A stretch of 38,976 bases of DNA from Candidatus Omnitrophota bacterium (GTDB taxonomy: Bacteria > Omnitrophota > Gorgyraeia > Gygaellales > Profunditerraquicolaceae). The stretch spans positions 1 to 38,976 of the forward strand of contig JAKLQX010000034.1 of NCBI GenBank assembly GCA_022013085.1, in the 5' to 3' direction. The notes under the pieces were generated by a model, which was not told where the DNA came from, searched no databases, and saw only the letters and a list, made by a program, of their open reading frames with translations. Of this stretch, positions 4,847 to 37,627 are shown piece after piece; positions within the stretch are counted from its first letter, which is position 1; each line of letters opens with the position of its first letter. The position numbers were made by a program, and so were the translations under genes.

Positions 4847-4878
4847 ACACCCGCGCAACTCTTTTAAGCGCGGGGTGT
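4847..4878 (-). repeat. Bulged GC hairpin between fusA and tuf
   Basis: Minus strand ACACCCCGCGC-TTAAAAGAGTT-GCGCGGGTGT; near-identical plan to the rplJ-rplL hairpin, including the unpaired C. No U-tract follows. Confidence 0.7.
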
Positions 4879-4884
4879 TACTTT

Positions 4885-15894: not shown

Positions 15895-15957
15895 AACACC
15901 CGCGCAATTTTCGCCGCCTGGCGAACACCCGCACAATTCTGATAAGCGCGGGGTGTT
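15895..15957 (-). repeat. Alternative-pairing hairpin region between rplJ and rplL
   Basis: + strand: AACACCCGCGCAATT (15895) and AACACCCGCACAATT (15924) are direct repeats; both complement the single arm GCGCGGGGTGTT (15946-15957). TTCGCCGCCTGGCGAA lies between them. Confidence 0.65.
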
Positions 15958-21177: not shown

Positions 21178-22066
21178 CTAAATACTTGGCTAACCTTTCT
21201 TGCAATCTCTTCTCAAATAAATACGCCTGAATCTTTTCCTGGGACTGGGATAGATTTAACTGCTGACTGCCTAAAATATTCTCTAATTTAAATACATAGA
21301 ACTGCCCGTCAATCTTTACTGGATTACTAACCTCCCCTAACTCAAGCTTAAATACGGTTTGCTCTATCTCTTTACGTAAATTTTCACCCTGCCAAGCAGA
21401 TAATTTATCAACGGTAAAAGGATATTTCGAAGCCAAATCTTCCAATTTATCTCCTCGACGCAAATTATAACTAACCGCGCTAGCCACGGAGTCATCCTGA
21501 ATGACAATAACCGTAAGCTGCCGCTCTTCAGGTTTTAAAAACTGCTGTTTATTCTCATTAAAAAAAGAAGTGATCTCATCCGGACGAATAATTATTTTAA
21601 CGCGCACCTTCTCTTCAACAACGGCATACATAAGCATCTGCTCGCGAATTTTATTCTCTAAATCTACCTGTGCCAAGCCTTGCTTAGCTAAATCATTTTC
21701 AAACTCCGCCTCTGTGCCATAGCGCTTCTTAATATCATTAATTTTTGCCTGAATCCTAGCACTCTCAATAACTATCTTTTCATTTCTAGCCTGCTGAAGC
21801 ATGAGGCGATCTTCAATCAAGCGCTGTAATAAATCCTGCTTCATTGCACTAACTTTCTCTTCTAATTCTTTGCCTTTAAATTCCCGAGCAAACTGCACAC
21901 GTATAAAACTTGAGAAATCATTCAGGTCTTTTTGCGTGATGACGTCATTATTCACTACTGCTACTACTTTGTCTTCAGCAAAAAGGCAGTAGCTAGGGAT
22001 CAACACACAAAATAAGATAAAAAAATGTAACCCTAAAAATAACTTAAAACTAACTTTCCTCTTCAT
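21134..22066 (-). CDS. SurA/PpiC-type periplasmic peptidyl-prolyl isomerase
   Basis: Signal peptide MKRKVSFKLFLGLHFFILFCVLIPSYCLFA, VAVVNNDVITQKDL (SurA_N), rotamase-like tail FKLELGEVSNPVKIDGQFYVFKL. Start set at 22066. Confidence 0.85.
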   Translation of the reverse strand: MKRKVSFKLFLGLHFFILFCVLIPSYCLFAEDKVVAVVNNDVITQKDLNDFSSFIRVQFAREFKGKELEEKVSAMKQDLLQRLIEDRLMLQQARNEKIVIESARIQAKINDIKKRYGTEAEFENDLAKQGLAQVDLENKIREQMLMYAVVEEKVRVKIIIRPDEITSFFNENKQQFLKPEERQLTVIVIQDDSVASAVSYNLRRGDKLEDLASKYPFTVDKLSAWQGENLRKEIEQTVFKLELGEVSNPVKIDGQFYVFKLENILGSQQLNLSQSQEKIQAYLFEKRLQERLAKYLDELKKQSYIKIIAS

Positions 22067-23957
22067 TAAACACACCTGCTTTCTTAAAATTAACAATTGC
22101 TTCCTTAAGCAACCTACAGTAAAGATCAAAACCTACAGCGGCAATGAAACCATGCTGTTGCTGGCCCAGAAGATTCCCGGCGCCACGAATCTCAAGATCT
22201 TCCATAGCAATATTAAATCCTGCTCCCAAATCACTATTGCTCTCTATCGCCTGCAACCTTTTCTTAGCAACCGCTTCCAACGGAGCATTATGAGGAATCA
22301 TAAAATAAGCGTAAGCCGAACGGTTAAACCTGCCCACCCGGCCGCGTAGCTGATGCAGGTCTGACAAACCAAACATATGCGCGTTATTCACAATGATGGT
22401 ATTGGCATTGGGAATATCGATTCCAGATTCAATAATCATTGTGGAAACTAAAACATCAATATCCCCGTTTATAAAATCCGACATTACCTTTTCTAATAGC
22501 TTAGCGTTCATCTGGCCATGCGCAATAGCAATACGTACATTAGCCCCCAAGCCTTGTGTAACCTTCTGCTTAACTTTTTCCAGGCCAAGAATACGATTAT
22601 GCAAAAAAAACACTTGGCCAGAACGCGCCAGCTCCCGCGAAATTGCCTGAAAGACTAAATCAGCGTCATATTCTACCACAACCGTCTTAATAGGCAATCT
22701 ATTTTGCGGCGGCGTATTGATTACAGAAAAATCTTTTGCCCCCATTAAGCTCATATATAAAGTACGCGGAATTGGCGTAGCAGTCAAAACAAGTATATCT
22801 GTAGAAAGTTTAAGCTTCTTTAATTTTTCTTTAGCCTTAACTCCAAAACGCTGTTCCTCATCAACAATAACCAGGCCCAAATCCTTAAAACTTACATCTT
22901 CAGAGAGAAGCCTGTGTGTGCCTATAACAATATCTACATTACCAGTTTTTAAGTTTTTAATAATCTGGCCTTGCTCGACTTGAGTTTTAAAACGGGAAAG
23001 CATCTGCACATTAACCGGAAAATTCTTTAAACGCATAGTAAAATTCTTATAGTGTTGTTCAGCTAAAATAGTCGTGGGCACTAAGTAGGCCACCTGCTTG
23101 CTATCCATCACCGCCTTAAAAGCAGCACGCATAGCTACTTCAGTCTTGCCGTATCCAACATCACCACAAAGCAAGCGGTCCATAGGTTTAGCTGATTGCA
23201 TATCGGTTTTAACTTCCCGCATTGCTTTAGCCTGATCAGGAGTTTCTTGGTAGGGGAATGTCTTTTCAAAATCTAACTGCCAATCCGTATCGCAAGAAAA
23301 CTTAAAACCTGAGCTTGCCAAACGCATTGCTTGCAAACTCAATAACTCCCAAGCTAACTTCTGGATACCTTTACGTGCACGCTGCTTAATCCTCTGCCAC
23401 TCCTTATTTCCTAGACGGTAAAGTTTAGGCCTACGCGCGCAAAATGCGATATACTTTTGCACCAAGTGCATCGCCTCAACCGGAACATAAAGTTTTTCAT
23501 TTCGATCGTATTCAATTACTATATGATCTTTAAGATGATCCTGAAATTTAACTTTTTGAATGCCTAAAAATTTACCGATACCATGCTGATTATGCACCAC
23601 AAAATCACCAACACTTAAATCTACAAAATTTTTTATCGGAAACTCTTCGCTAAATACCGATCTTTTAATACTAGTTGGCTTCTTAAGCGGCAAAATAATA
23701 ACAATATTATGCTGCCAAAGCGCCTCGCCGTTATCAGGATTAAATGTCTTAAGAGTTAACACTGTTTGATTATCTAATTCAATACGAATGGGCAACTCAA
23801 AAGACACCGGAAAGATGTCAATAATCATTCCGCGACGCGCGAAATCACCCTCCCCTAAAACCTCATCTTGCCTCTTATAACCAAAATCAACCAGGTTTTT
23901 AGATAATACCTCTAAATCAATATCTTGTTGGGAATATAGTTTGAGGGATTTAAACAT
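22050..23957 (-). CDS. mfd: Compact transcription-repair coupling factor (Mfd)-like translocase
   Basis: RID-like SVGDFVVHNQHGIGKFLGI, helicase motifs LLCGDVGYGKTEVAMRAAF, VIVDEEQRFGVKAKEKLK, LTATPIPRTLYMSLMGAKD, STMIIESGIDIPNANT, QLRGRVGR, GAGNLLGQQQHG. Start set at MFKSLKLYSQQD; lacks much of a canonical Mfd. Confidence 0.9.
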   Translation of the reverse strand: MFKSLKLYSQQDIDLEVLSKNLVDFGYKRQDEVLGEGDFARRGMIIDIFPVSFELPIRIELDNQTVLTLKTFNPDNGEALWQHNIVIILPLKKPTSIKRSVFSEEFPIKNFVDLSVGDFVVHNQHGIGKFLGIQKVKFQDHLKDHIVIEYDRNEKLYVPVEAMHLVQKYIAFCARRPKLYRLGNKEWQRIKQRARKGIQKLAWELLSLQAMRLASSGFKFSCDTDWQLDFEKTFPYQETPDQAKAMREVKTDMQSAKPMDRLLCGDVGYGKTEVAMRAAFKAVMDSKQVAYLVPTTILAEQHYKNFTMRLKNFPVNVQMLSRFKTQVEQGQIIKNLKTGNVDIVIGTHRLLSEDVSFKDLGLVIVDEEQRFGVKAKEKLKKLKLSTDILVLTATPIPRTLYMSLMGAKDFSVINTPPQNRLPIKTVVVEYDADLVFQAISRELARSGQVFFLHNRILGLEKVKQKVTQGLGANVRIAIAHGQMNAKLLEKVMSDFINGDIDVLVSTMIIESGIDIPNANTIIVNNAHMFGLSDLHQLRGRVGRFNRSAYAYFMIPHNAPLEAVAKKRLQAIESNSDLGAGFNIAMEDLEIRGAGNLLGQQQHGFIAAVGFDLYCRLLKEAIVNFKKAGVFNEEES

Positions 23958-23978
23958 AATTTTTAAAAAAGAGGGAAA

Positions 23979-24045
23979 AATAGGGGACGTCCTGTTAAGG
24001 GACACCCTATTTTATAGGGTGTCCCTTTTTAGGACGTCCCCTATT
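23979..24045. repeat. 67-bp nested palindrome between secDF and mfd (REP-like)
   Basis: AATAGGGGACGTCCT-gtt-AAGGGACACCCTAT-ttt-ATAGGGTGTCCCTT-ttt-AGGACGTCCCCTATT. Confidence 0.85.
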
Positions 24046-24047
24046 TT

Positions 24048-33354: not shown

Positions 33355-36027
33355 CTAACTGTTTATTATATCCTTTAATTTCTCAAATACCAATGTAAAA
33401 TTATTCAGATTTGTTCCACCTGCCTGGGCAAATTCCTGCCTACCTCCACCTGATCCGCCAATAAGTGGCGCCAATTGGCAAATCAATACTCCAGCATCTA
33501 TATTTTTAGATAATAAATCCGGCGTAACAGCAATAACTAAAAAAGCCTTTTTCTGCTGCTTATTAGCCGAACCTAAAACAATCACAACAGAAGATAGCTT
33601 TTCTTTTATTTTATCCGCCAAAATCCTTAAGACATGCATATCCAAATCATCTTCCAACGAAAAAATAACATTAATACCGTTAATCAATGCACTTTTCTCT
33701 ATGATTCTTGGTAATGCATCAATCAGGCTAATTTCTACTTCAGCACTGCGTTTCTTTTCATCTTTCTTTAATTCCTTTAACCTTTGCATCTTCGTAACTT
33801 CTGCAATCGCCTTTTCTTCTTCATCTTTAATGAACCGCTCTGCAAAACCGCTAGTTGCGCCCTCAATCCTTCTTATGCCACTGGCTACTGATCCTTCACT
33901 AATTATTTTTATTAAACCAATTTCTTTTACATTAGTTAAATGCGTGCCGCCACAGAGTTCATTTGAAATTTCACCTATCATAATCACGCGGACAATTTCA
34001 GAATACTTTTCTTCAAAAAAAGCTAATGCCCCTGTTTTCTTAGCATCAACAAACGCCATCTCTTTACTGTTTACCGCGCAATCATTAACAATAAAACTAT
34101 TAGCCACCTCTTCAACCCGGGCCAGCTCCTCTTTAGTCAAACCTTTAAAATGCGTAAAATCAAAACGGAATTTTTCTTCTGAAACTAAAGAACCTTGCTG
34201 CTGGACATGATTCCCTAAAACCTGCCTTAAAGCTGCCTGCAATATATGCGTCGCTGTATGGTTGCGGGCAATGTTCAGCCTACGCTGGGTATCTATCTGC
34301 GCAACTACCGCATCCCCTTTTTTAAAGCTGCCAGAACTAATCGTGCCAATATGTAAAATAACATTACCGATTTTTTGCGTATCCGAAACAATAAATTTAT
34401 TTTCACCTTTAGTTAAAATACCTATGTCACCAACTTGGCCACCGCTTTCAGCGTAAAAAGGCGTTTCATCTAAAATTATTGCGCCTTTCATACCTAGGCT
34501 TATTTCAGTTAATTTTTTATTCTTTTCATGAGAATCAATTATTTCTATTATCTTAGCTTTTACAGAAGTACTCTCATAACCTAAGAATTTTGTATCTTTT
34601 AACCCTAACTCTAACCCTTTGGCATCAAAAACATCGCCTTTCATCTTACTAAATGATTTTGAAAGGTTCTTCTGTTTATCCAGCTCATGCTGATAAGCCG
34701 CTCCAAAATTCTCGCCAACTTTAATAAATCTTATATTTAATTCATCCTTGGTTATTTCCAGCGGAATTCCATTAGTATCATATAATTTAAAAGCAGAAAT
34801 ACCTAGGATCCCAGAAGTACCTGCACTAGCGATAATAAAACCTTCTATCTTTGGATCATTTTCTAAATCTTTTTTAACTTTCTCAATCTCATTATCTATT
34901 AAAGTACTGCTCAAACTAAGTGTATTAATAAAATTATTTTCTTCATTTAAAATAATCCGGGCAATATCCTCCTTCCTGCTTAATAAACCAGGATAAGGCT
35001 TGTGCATAATTTGAGCAACTACGACAACCAATTTATACAGGAAAGGCTTATCTATTCCTAAACTTTTCAGATGTAAAACACTCTTACGGATAATTTTTCT
35101 TACGATATACCCACGGCCTTCGTTGGAGGGCGCTATCCCGTCATAGATCGAAAAAACCACTGCCCTTATATGGTCTGCAACAGCATAAAGAAGCTTTTTT
35201 TCGGGGATTGCCTGCCTGCAGGTAGGCAGGTCCCCGCAATGGGACTGTCCCCGAATTATCTCTTTAATTATCGGCTGAAATAATTCTGTCTCAAAATTAT
35301 TCTGCTTACCCTGCGTTAGGGCAGTTAATCTCTCAAGGCCCATCCCAGTATCAATATTCTTATTTGGCAGCGGCTCTATGCTTGCATCAAGCTTACGGTT
35401 AAACTGCGTAAAAACTAAATTCCATATTTCTACAAACCTTCCGCAGGAGCAAGATGGATTACAATTTTTTTCTTTACAGCCAATATCTTGGCCAAAATCA
35501 TAAAATATCTCTGAGCAGGGGCCACATGGCCCATTTGGCCCTTTAGCTTTAGCTTCCGCGGGCCAAAAATTATCTTCATCTCCCAGCTTTACAATCTTTT
35601 CAACCGGAATGCCTATTTTATCTTTCCAAATCTTATAAGCTTCCTCATCATCTTTATAAACTGATATCCAAAACTTCTCTTGGCTTAAATTCAACTCTTT
35701 CGTCAAAAATTCCCATGCCCAACTGATTGCTTCCTCCTTAAAATAATCTCCAAAAGAAAAATTGCCCAGCATTTCAAAAAAAGTATGGTGCGCACTTGTT
35801 TTGCCTACCTTTTCCAAATCATCTGTACGCAAACAACGCTGTGCTGTTGCGGCGCGCTTAAATCCAGAATCCCGCCCCATAAACTCTTTCTTAAACTGAT
35901 TCATCCCTGCAGGAGTAAATAATACGGTAAGGTCATCTTTAGGAACCAAAGAATCACTTTCAACAATCTTATGTTTCTTGGCTTTAAAAAAATCCAAAAA
36001 TTTTTCTCTTAAAATATCCGCTGTCAT
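33355..36027 (-). CDS. alaS: Alanyl-tRNA synthetase
   Basis: FLDFFKAKKHKIVESDSLVP...TPAGMNQFKKEF, HHTFFEMLGNFSFGDYFK, NHTATHILQAALRQVLG, GGSGGGRQEFAQAGG. Confidence 0.97.
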   Translation of the reverse strand: MTADILREKFLDFFKAKKHKIVESDSLVPKDDLTVLFTPAGMNQFKKEFMGRDSGFKRAATAQRCLRTDDLEKVGKTSAHHTFFEMLGNFSFGDYFKEEAISWAWEFLTKELNLSQEKFWISVYKDDEEAYKIWKDKIGIPVEKIVKLGDEDNFWPAEAKAKGPNGPCGPCSEIFYDFGQDIGCKEKNCNPSCSCGRFVEIWNLVFTQFNRKLDASIEPLPNKNIDTGMGLERLTALTQGKQNNFETELFQPIIKEIIRGQSHCGDLPTCRQAIPEKKLLYAVADHIRAVVFSIYDGIAPSNEGRGYIVRKIIRKSVLHLKSLGIDKPFLYKLVVVVAQIMHKPYPGLLSRKEDIARIILNEENNFINTLSLSSTLIDNEIEKVKKDLENDPKIEGFIIASAGTSGILGISAFKLYDTNGIPLEITKDELNIRFIKVGENFGAAYQHELDKQKNLSKSFSKMKGDVFDAKGLELGLKDTKFLGYESTSVKAKIIEIIDSHEKNKKLTEISLGMKGAIILDETPFYAESGGQVGDIGILTKGENKFIVSDTQKIGNVILHIGTISSGSFKKGDAVVAQIDTQRRLNIARNHTATHILQAALRQVLGNHVQQQGSLVSEEKFRFDFTHFKGLTKEELARVEEVANSFIVNDCAVNSKEMAFVDAKKTGALAFFEEKYSEIVRVIMIGEISNELCGGTHLTNVKEIGLIKIISEGSVASGIRRIEGATSGFAERFIKDEEEKAIAEVTKMQRLKELKKDEKKRSAEVEISLIDALPRIIEKSALINGINVIFSLEDDLDMHVLRILADKIKEKLSSVVIVLGSANKQQKKAFLVIAVTPDLLSKNIDAGVLICQLAPLIGGSGGGRQEFAQAGGTNLNNFTLVFEKLKDIINS
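35200..35255. repeat. Complex palindrome inside the alaS coding sequence
   Basis: TTCGGGGATTGCCTGCCTGCAGGTAGGCAGGTCCCCGCAATGGGACTGTCCCCGAA; encodes FRGQSHCGDLPTCRQAIPE-type residues (RGQSHCGDLPTCRQAIPEK) between KEII and the ADHIRA motif. Confidence 0.75.
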
Positions 36028-36044
36028 AATTAAATTATCAACAA

Positions 36045-36074
36045 CAGTAGGGGAGGTTTAAACCTCCCCTACTG
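36045..36074. repeat. 30-bp perfect palindrome spanning the recX stop codon
   Basis: CAGTAGGGGAGGTTTAAACCTCCCCTACTG; recX TAA at the centre. Confidence 0.85.
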
Positions 36075-36606
36075 CGTTCCTAACTGTATCCAGTGAAAAT
36101 CCACGACGCATCAAATACGCATATAAGCGCGCCTTTGCCTTAAGCGGTTCTACGCCTTTTAGCCTGCAAAATCTTTGCTCCGCCAGTTGCCTGACTATAG
36201 CGCCTTCGTCGTAATCCTCTTTTGCCTGTGCAAGAGTTACTTCAATAATCTCTTTATCTAAACCCTTCTGAACTAATTCCTGCTTTATCCTTCTTAAGCC
36301 AAATGGCCGCTTAAGCCGGAAAGCTACCCAACCTTGAGCAAAGATCTGGTCATCGATGAATTGCTTATCTTTAAGGAAATTTAAAGTAACTTGAATTATT
36401 GCTTCAGAGAATTTTTTTTGTCTTAAGCGTGAAGCTAACTCTTTTTCGCTGCGTAAACGAAATTTAAGCAGTAAAAAAGAATACTCCTTCGCCGCTTGAA
36501 GATCATGGCTTTGCCTATCGGCCCCGCCGTAGGCGGGGTCGGAAGGCAAACCATTGCCTCCTGGCTTATTCGGCTTGGCTAAATTTTTTACGTACAGCTT
36601 TTTCAA
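36058..36606 (-). CDS. recX: Regulatory protein RecX
   Basis: [68 protein letters not shown]; recA-recX-alaS order. True start uncertain: an in-frame TTG near 36549 follows AGGAGG. Confidence 0.9.
36508..36552. repeat. Palindrome at the recX 5' end
   Basis: GCTTTGCCTATCGGCCCCGCCGTAGGCGGGGTCGGAAGGCAAACC; encodes the [15 protein letters not shown] segment. Confidence 0.7.
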
Positions 36607-37627
36607 TATCTTCCTGCAACTTTGGATTCTCTTTTAAGAATTTTATCGCTGCGTCTCTGCCTTGGCCCAACTTCTTGTCCTCAAACGAAAGCCATGTCCC
36701 TGACTTAGCGATTACCTCAAGATTAACTCCCGCGTCAATAACAGCTCCTGTCTTGGAAATCCCTTCATTATGCAGAATATCAAACTCTGCCTCACGAAAA
36801 GGCGGAGCAATTTTGTTTTTAACTACCTTTACTCTGACATGACTACCAATGACTTTATCCCCTTCTTTTAAGTAAGCAATTCTACGTACATCTAACCGTA
36901 CTGATGAATAAAATTTTAGCGCTCTGCCGCCAGGAGTTGTTTCCGGTGAACCAAACATAATCCCGATTTTTTCTCTCAATTGATTAATGAAAATTACCGT
37001 AGTGCGTGATTTGCTAATCGAGCCGGTCAGTTTACGCAAAGCCTGTGACATAAGCCGCGCCTGAAGCCCCATATGTGAATCCCCCATCTCGCCTTCAATT
37101 TCAGCGCGCGGGGTTAATGCTGCCACTGAATCAATCACCACTAAATCTACGGCGTTAGATCGCACTAAAGTTTCTGTGATCTCTAAAGCCTGCTCCCCAG
37201 TATCAGGCTGAGAGATTAAAAGATCATCCAGATTTACACCAATTAATTTGGCGTAAGTTGAATCAAAAGCATGCTCTGCATCAATAAATGCCGCTATTCC
37301 GCCTTTTTTCTGGTTTTCTCTTATTGCTGTTAACGTCAGTGTAGTTTTTCCGGAAGCTTCCGGGCCAAATATCTCCACAACCCTACCACGCGGGAGCCCA
37401 CCCACACCTAAAGCAAGGTCAAGAGTAAGCGCGCCAGTTGGAATAATCTCAACATTTGCCTTAGTGTGCGCGCCCAGCTTCATAATTGAGCCCTTGCCAA
37501 ACTGTTTCTCTATCTGCAAAAGCGCCAGATCTAATGCCTTTTGACGATTTAACGTATCTATTGACTCTTCTTTCCCCGCCTTCGGCGGGATCTCGAATTT
37601 AGGTTGTGACTTCTTATCTACTGTCAT
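36566..37627 (-). CDS. recA: Recombinase RecA
   Basis: [56 protein letters not shown]; start set at MTVDKKSQP (SD GAGAGGA), not the longer ORF. Confidence 0.97.
37575..37590. repeat. GC palindrome inside the recA N-terminal coding sequence
   Basis: CCCGCCTTCGGCGGGA, encoding IPPKAG. Confidence 0.65.

Follow-up and report, generated by a model that had tools for sequence, protein, structure and literature searches.

Most of what is known about palindromes that code for protein comes from Rickettsia, and outside this genus there are scattered intragenic REPs. The Rickettsia palindromic elements (RPEs) are about 150 bp long and fall into ten families (PMC10969869). Translated intragenic REPs have been described in housekeeping genes, tRNA synthetase genes included, and in Xanthomonas recB different REPs occupy about the same site (PMC3733652). 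The terminal repeats of TIRtrons (TIRYT repeats), located beside Y1 transposase genes, share the consensus GGGGWSAS (PMC3733652). Here, we describe a comparable element in an uncultured phylum.

The window, a stretch of 38,976 nucleotides analysed as a whole, corresponds to contig C16 in a draft genome of 1.39 Mb from Candidatus Omnitrophota, the source of nearly all alaS relatives as judged by named records. Its alaS gene for alanyl-tRNA synthetase (33355..36027, minus strand) is an ORF of 890 aa with the Pfam domains PF01411, PF07973 and PF02272 (tRNA-synt_2c, E 2.7e-176) and a fold match to AlaRS structures. A composite palindromic element lies in frame at 35200..35255 (minus strand) within IRGQSHCGDLPTCRQAIPEK, AlaS residues 258-277. 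The coding strand reads TTCGGGGACAGTCCCATTGCGGGGA-CCTGCCTACCTGCAGGCAGG-CAATCCCCGAA in frame, and the open frame suggests that the element is translated. The preliminary description had reported an in-frame palindromic element in alaS, and we confirm its sequence, position, frame and peptide. On the plus strand, the outer left piece TTCGGGGATTG (35200-35210) is followed by an inner 20-bp palindrome (35211-35230), TCCCCG (35231-35236), CAA and the outer right piece TGGGACTGTCCCCGAA (35240-35255). The outer pieces belong to a repeat that we call REP-A (GGGGACAGTCCCCnnCGGGGACAGTCCCC) and the inner palindrome to a second repeat, PAL20 (CCTGCCTGCAGGTAGGCAGG, assigned to neither strand). On the minus coding strand, the first REP-A arm CGGGGACAGTCCCA spans 35240..35253 and is also present in three related alaS genes (L019, L027 and L034) and in dispersed copies. 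The second arm, CGGGGA ... CAATCCCCG, spans 35202..35236 and, as comparison of linkers reveals, is split by PAL20, which is itself recognised by its dispersed relatives. The composite measures 52-56 bp and its component units 20 and about 31 bp. We regard it as two unrelated dispersed repeats nested in a tolerant alaS linker and read in frame at no use to AlaS, a reading to which we assign a probability of roughly 0.8.

The nested architecture emerges from comparison with close relatives. The linkers of L019, L027 and L034 contain REP-A alone, CGGGGACAGTCCCCTTCGGGGACAGTCCCCG (with one change in L034), read as RGQSPSGTVPE. The window linker exceeds this REP-A-only form by 7 codons, made up of the 20 nt of PAL20 and a single additional loop nucleotide in REP-A, and the frame holds because these add up to 21 nt. 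As close relatives with a similar linker bear REP-A alone, the structure is a two-step one. In the first step, REP-A occupies the variable stretch that joins AlaS helices 251-260 and 277-295, and in the second, PAL20 is found within the second REP-A arm in the window lineage; the comparison shows both steps. A second copy of the full composite was not found in the own genome, and nesting thus most likely occurred in situ. The single palindromic insertion proposed in the preliminary description is indeed a palindromic repeat but not a single one, as a GGGGAC-type repeat is interrupted by an unrelated 20-bp palindrome. The lineage-specific insertion that was expected from an AlaS alignment is PAL20, nested in a REP-A that relatives with a similar linker carry on its own.

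Both components are dispersed, as genome-wide pattern searches revealed. REP-A was present in 16 of 39 related genomes, with no match in the controls. Among 49 distinct REP-A sites, 36 fall within ORFs of 150 aa or more. Of these intragenic copies, 33 share one register, in which the two strands encode GQSPxGTVP and GLSPKGTVP, respectively. The binomial probability of this bias (4e-13) is overstated as several sites are shared by descent. REP-A contains no stop codon in any of its six frames, as read from its sequence. In its usual register it would contribute a short, turn-rich peptide (GQSPxGTVP / GLSPKGTVP) suited to loops. Stop-free frames together with this peptide may explain, by filtering, why REP-A persists in genes. 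Its hosts, according to Pfam, include two class I (ValS-like) tRNA synthetases, fumarase alpha, a glycosyltransferase of family 9, NAD-dependent or nucleotide-sugar epimerases/dehydratases and a C39 peptidase. The fumarase alpha gene is an independent check on the in-frame behaviour of REP-A: the repeat occupies one site in four genomes, and the proteins are 8-14 aa longer than relatives with an empty site. The site is empty in most genus relatives, whose fumarase alpha has roughly 273 aa.

PAL20 has a different distribution. The own genome contains about 20 copies with at most 3 mismatches (reversed control pattern: 0), in line with the expectation that the palindrome would recur in intergenic regions; in the window, no chance match to the 20-mer is expected even at 3 mismatches. 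The search also covered 56 related genomes and detected copies in 43 of them, with none for the control; only 15 of 82 sampled copies lie inside an ORF of 120 aa or more. PAL20, which has the ends CCTG...CAGG, is thus a multi-copy, mostly intergenic short palindrome, as is characteristic of REP-like dispersed repeats. It also enters other reading frames. A decayed in-frame copy resides in an IspE-like kinase gene of the same genome, and relatives carry in-frame copies in PrmC-like and ArgC-like genes and in an NAPRT-isochorismatase fusion gene. In the latter (L153:3-1238, plus strand), the C-terminal domain of a nicotinate phosphoribosyltransferase is fused to an isochorismatase domain, and the junction holds PAL20 nested within a GGGACA...GTGTCCC repeat. 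Among putative viral contigs (L314-L346, IMG/VR), 33 stretches contain a perfect 20-mer of the PAL20 type, CCTGCCTGCCGGCAGGCAGG, with up to several copies per contig. Hairpins of the form ACACCCGCGCAA...GCGCGGGGTGTT are found in the window at 4847-4879 and 15925-15957 between genes of the ribosomal/rpo cluster, and a related hairpin at L048 is interrupted by PAL20. A general rule that PAL20 always targets hairpins was rejected: complementary flanks are only modestly enriched, with a complementarity score of at least 6 after removal of PAL20 at 7 of 82 copies against 2% of random positions, and some of these are tandem PAL20 copies. One copy on contig C26, whose flanks had suggested a cobalamin riboswitch, gave no Rfam match at the gathering threshold.

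The dispersed copies bear on the simplest alternative, an ordinary hypervariable protein linker in which the palindrome is a coincidence. The linker is indeed variable, as the preliminary description had held, and its sequence as well as its length vary across all AlaS proteins compared. Yet the dispersed DNA copies, set against controls with zero counts, refute coincidence, and the same elements recur in other genes. Moreover, L019, L027 and L034 have not only residues but also the palindromic codons in common with the window, which is not the pattern of like residues on unrelated codons that had been put forward as the mark of a common protein loop. We therefore consider coincidence extremely improbable.

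Relatives use the alaS linker in many ways. We read 71 distinct linkers, and a palindromic element, intact or decayed, is present in 22 of the 66 included in the tree, about a third as judged by reading. The elements represent at least five families. In 12 of 65 alaS genes, no other hairpin in the gene is as strong as the one in this linker, compared with 1.7 such genes expected. REP-A, present in either orientation, occurs alone, with a nested element C in both orientations, with a further element D and with a spacer. L023 carries REP-A with the nested CCCGCCACTGGTGCGTCGGCGGG element (C) and L029 the inverted form of this composite, while L212 has REP-A with a larger nested repeat and L235 REP-A arms with a spacer. 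CCCCCCTACCTCCCTTTGAAAAAGGGGGGAGAGGGGGG is found in the linkers of L026 and L041, CCGGTTATCCGG repeats in L040, GTAGGGGCGGGTTTCAAACCCGCCCCTGC in L271 and a TTCGCGTCCTCGCAATGAC repeat in L200. The CCCTTT, CCGGTTAT, GTAGGGG and TTCGCGTCCTCGCAATGAC repeats are unrelated to REP-A, and several linker families recur at other places in the DNA or genomes that were fetched. Element C was dismissed as an abundant independent family as its near-exact form was found in two alaS genes only, with looser variants elsewhere. A palindrome between alaS and recX in the window (36048-36073, GTAGGGGAGGTTTAAACCTCCCCTAC), the central TAA of which is the recX stop codon, belongs to a family also found in the L271 alaS linker.

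How often REP-A arrived in alaS is a separate question. In a tree of AlaS built without the linker and containing many supported forks, 25 changes are required to account for the linker states. Carriers of REP-A are mixed with ordinary EVEPKD-like linkers, a pattern readable as gain or as loss. REP-A-only linkers have 36 aa compared with mostly 33-35 aa in empty ones. REP-A thus replaces linker residues rather than being simply added, so that alaS offers no clean insertion with a target-site duplication. At the filled sites of both alaS and fumarase, some target residues are replaced with no clear duplication. Some codons next to the repeat are common to the carriers (GAGATAATHC..., GAAAAGAAGCTTCTT), suggesting one ancestral arrival and later homogenisation rather than many insertions. 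A single ancestral insertion, homogenised by gene conversion and moved or lost between lineages by short-tract recombination, would account for the identical register and junctions of most carriers with their shared flanking codons, for both orientations at the same junctions and for the interleaving of carriers and non-carriers on the tree. However, synonymous identity between carrier pairs is not clearly raised past the nearest codons. Any transferred tract must therefore be very short, and a long recombination tract as the vehicle of the alaS REP-A allele was discarded on the same grounds. In addition, families without similarity to REP-A use the same site. We give this history a real chance, somewhat short of even. 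It differs from the nested-repeat explanation in the number of arrivals and is compatible with it. One old arrival refreshed by conversion and repeated arrivals at a preferred site both fit the data, the identical REP-A core of L019 and L027 included. As the same spot holds at least five other repeats in relatives, it is a recurrent landing place, and the AlaS loop is probably a tolerant site, at which elements of this kind arrive, are inverted or eroded and give way to others. A bolder proposal is that the linker is an active docking site where, as soon as it holds a near-perfect palindrome, hairpin or cruciform processing lets other palindromes invert, nest or replace it in place, and that the repeats persisting in genes have a register encoding a loop-compatible peptide and are in effect adapted to translation. 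Taken jointly, we consider these two claims rather unlikely.

Alternatively, the hairpin might be a selected RNA element acting in the alaS message by pausing, attenuation or mRNA stability instead of being selfish DNA. The 81-nt alaS segment has a strong predicted fold (−30.4 kcal/mol, z = −3.15). Between distant species, conservation of the REP-A core far exceeds that of synonymous alaS codons: L019 and L027 have identical cores, but in the rest of alaS only about 50% of their synonymous codons match. On the other hand, the hairpin is missing from the linker in about two thirds of the relatives, many alaS copies are decayed (L016, L022, L025 and L032), unrelated palindromes occupy the same site and the same REP-A repeat is found in unrelated genes. 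A selected RNA element is thus improbable, and tolerated selfish DNA is the most likely interpretation of the AlaS element.

The predicted protein structure is consistent with tolerance. In an AlphaFold2 model of AlaS residues 1-480 (mean pLDDT 83.5), which matches crystal structures of AlaRS catalytic fragments, residues 261-276 form a coil between helices 251-260 and 277-295. The PAL20-encoded residues 265-273 have pLDDT values below 50, and alignment of the window AlaS to the 1RIQ sequence leaves a gap at the element site. The model fits a tolerated and probably exposed loop. Of the surface loop proposed earlier, the coil between two helices was recovered with low confidence, and its exposure is only probable. 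The element would be of no use to AlaS, which corresponds to a neutral or selfish reading.

Shared GGGGAC ends suggest that REP-A derives from the Y1/HUH elements (IS200-like, RAYT/TIRYT) of these genomes, probably as a miniature, non-autonomous form. It begins with GGGGACAG and ends with GTCCCC, and GGGGACAG fits the GGGGWSAS motif. GGGAC/GTCCC motifs reach 7.3 per kb beside Y1_Tnp ORFs versus 0.86 elsewhere, an about eightfold enrichment, and are present on both sides of 11 of 21 Y1_Tnp ORFs. In the Y1_Tnp loci fetched, no exact REP-A copy flanked a transposase gene. Y1 transposases may mobilise REP-A, a link that stays inferential because of this absence. PAL20 was absent from all 30 Y1_Tnp loci examined, and its association with Y1 transposases was rejected on this basis. 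Other palindromes were noticed in the window. One with 34-bp arms (AAAATAGGGGACGTCCTGTTAAGGGACACCCTAT..., 23977-24047), between a secD/F-like ORF and mfd, resembles the joined ends of the Y1_Tnp elements L114 and L117 without a transposase, a REPIN/MITE layout. The mfd ORF (22050-24005), which starts at this palindrome, has UvrB-interaction, RID, DEAD and helicase domains but gave no hit to a further N-terminal domain. Another palindrome, GGCCCCGCCGTAGGCGGGGTCGG (36520-36545), falls within the coding sequence predicted for the N-terminus of recX, before the first RecX domain, where the true start of recX is uncertain, and CCGCCTTCGGCGGG (37576-37589) lies in the N-terminal coding region of recA.

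In this uncultured phylum, in-frame repeats have entered essential enzymes, and one alaS codon site holds unrelated families in about one third of the sampled genes. The range from filled through inverted, nested and decayed to empty sites provides a natural series on the survival of selfish repeats in essential genes. It is also a warning against taking loop insertions in metagenome proteins for protein features, as peptides such as GLSPKGTVP or LPAGRQ can stem from repeat DNA.

Among the known systems, RPEs resemble the composite as palindromes in frame in many unrelated protein genes that use a stop-free frame, and this in-frame behaviour is the part of the proposed Rickettsia resemblance that stands. 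Class identity does not: with 52-56 bp and units of 20 and about 31 bp, an Omnitrophota host and a GGGGWSAS-like outer unit, the composite differs from RPEs, which were compared by description only. A true RPE acquired horizontally would explain an in-frame palindrome in an essential protein gene, as RPEs generate them (PMC10969869). However, about 54 bp stand against the described length of about 150 bp, both units are dispersed across Omnitrophota, and the GGGGAC ends fit Y1-transposase terminal repeats; such an origin is hardly credible. With TIRYT/RAYT repeats, REP-A shares the GGGGWSAS-type start, palindromic structure, dispersal, occurrence in dimers and the enrichment of GGGAC motifs beside the Y1_Tnp genes of these genomes. 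In contrast to them, it is mostly intragenic and in one register, with no exact copy beside a transposase. Like intragenic GTAG/CGTC REPs, the repeats are palindromic and in frame in housekeeping genes including tRNA synthetases, but neither REP-A nor PAL20 bears a GTAG or CGTC tag, and here two families are nested and several share one codon site. REPINs and MITEs are likewise short, non-autonomous repeats probably mobilised in trans, although no clear target-site duplication was seen for REP-A or PAL20. Among open-licence papers we found none naming these repeats or peptides, and a search for Omnitrophota and palindromic yielded nothing relevant by title and abstract. Intragenic REPs with tRNA synthetase hosts had been described before (PMC3733652), and the classic protein-coding palindromes are RPEs (PMC10969869). 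To these, the Omnitrophota repeats add nested in-frame palindromes, the turnover of multiple families at one codon site of an essential gene and the fixed register of REP-A.
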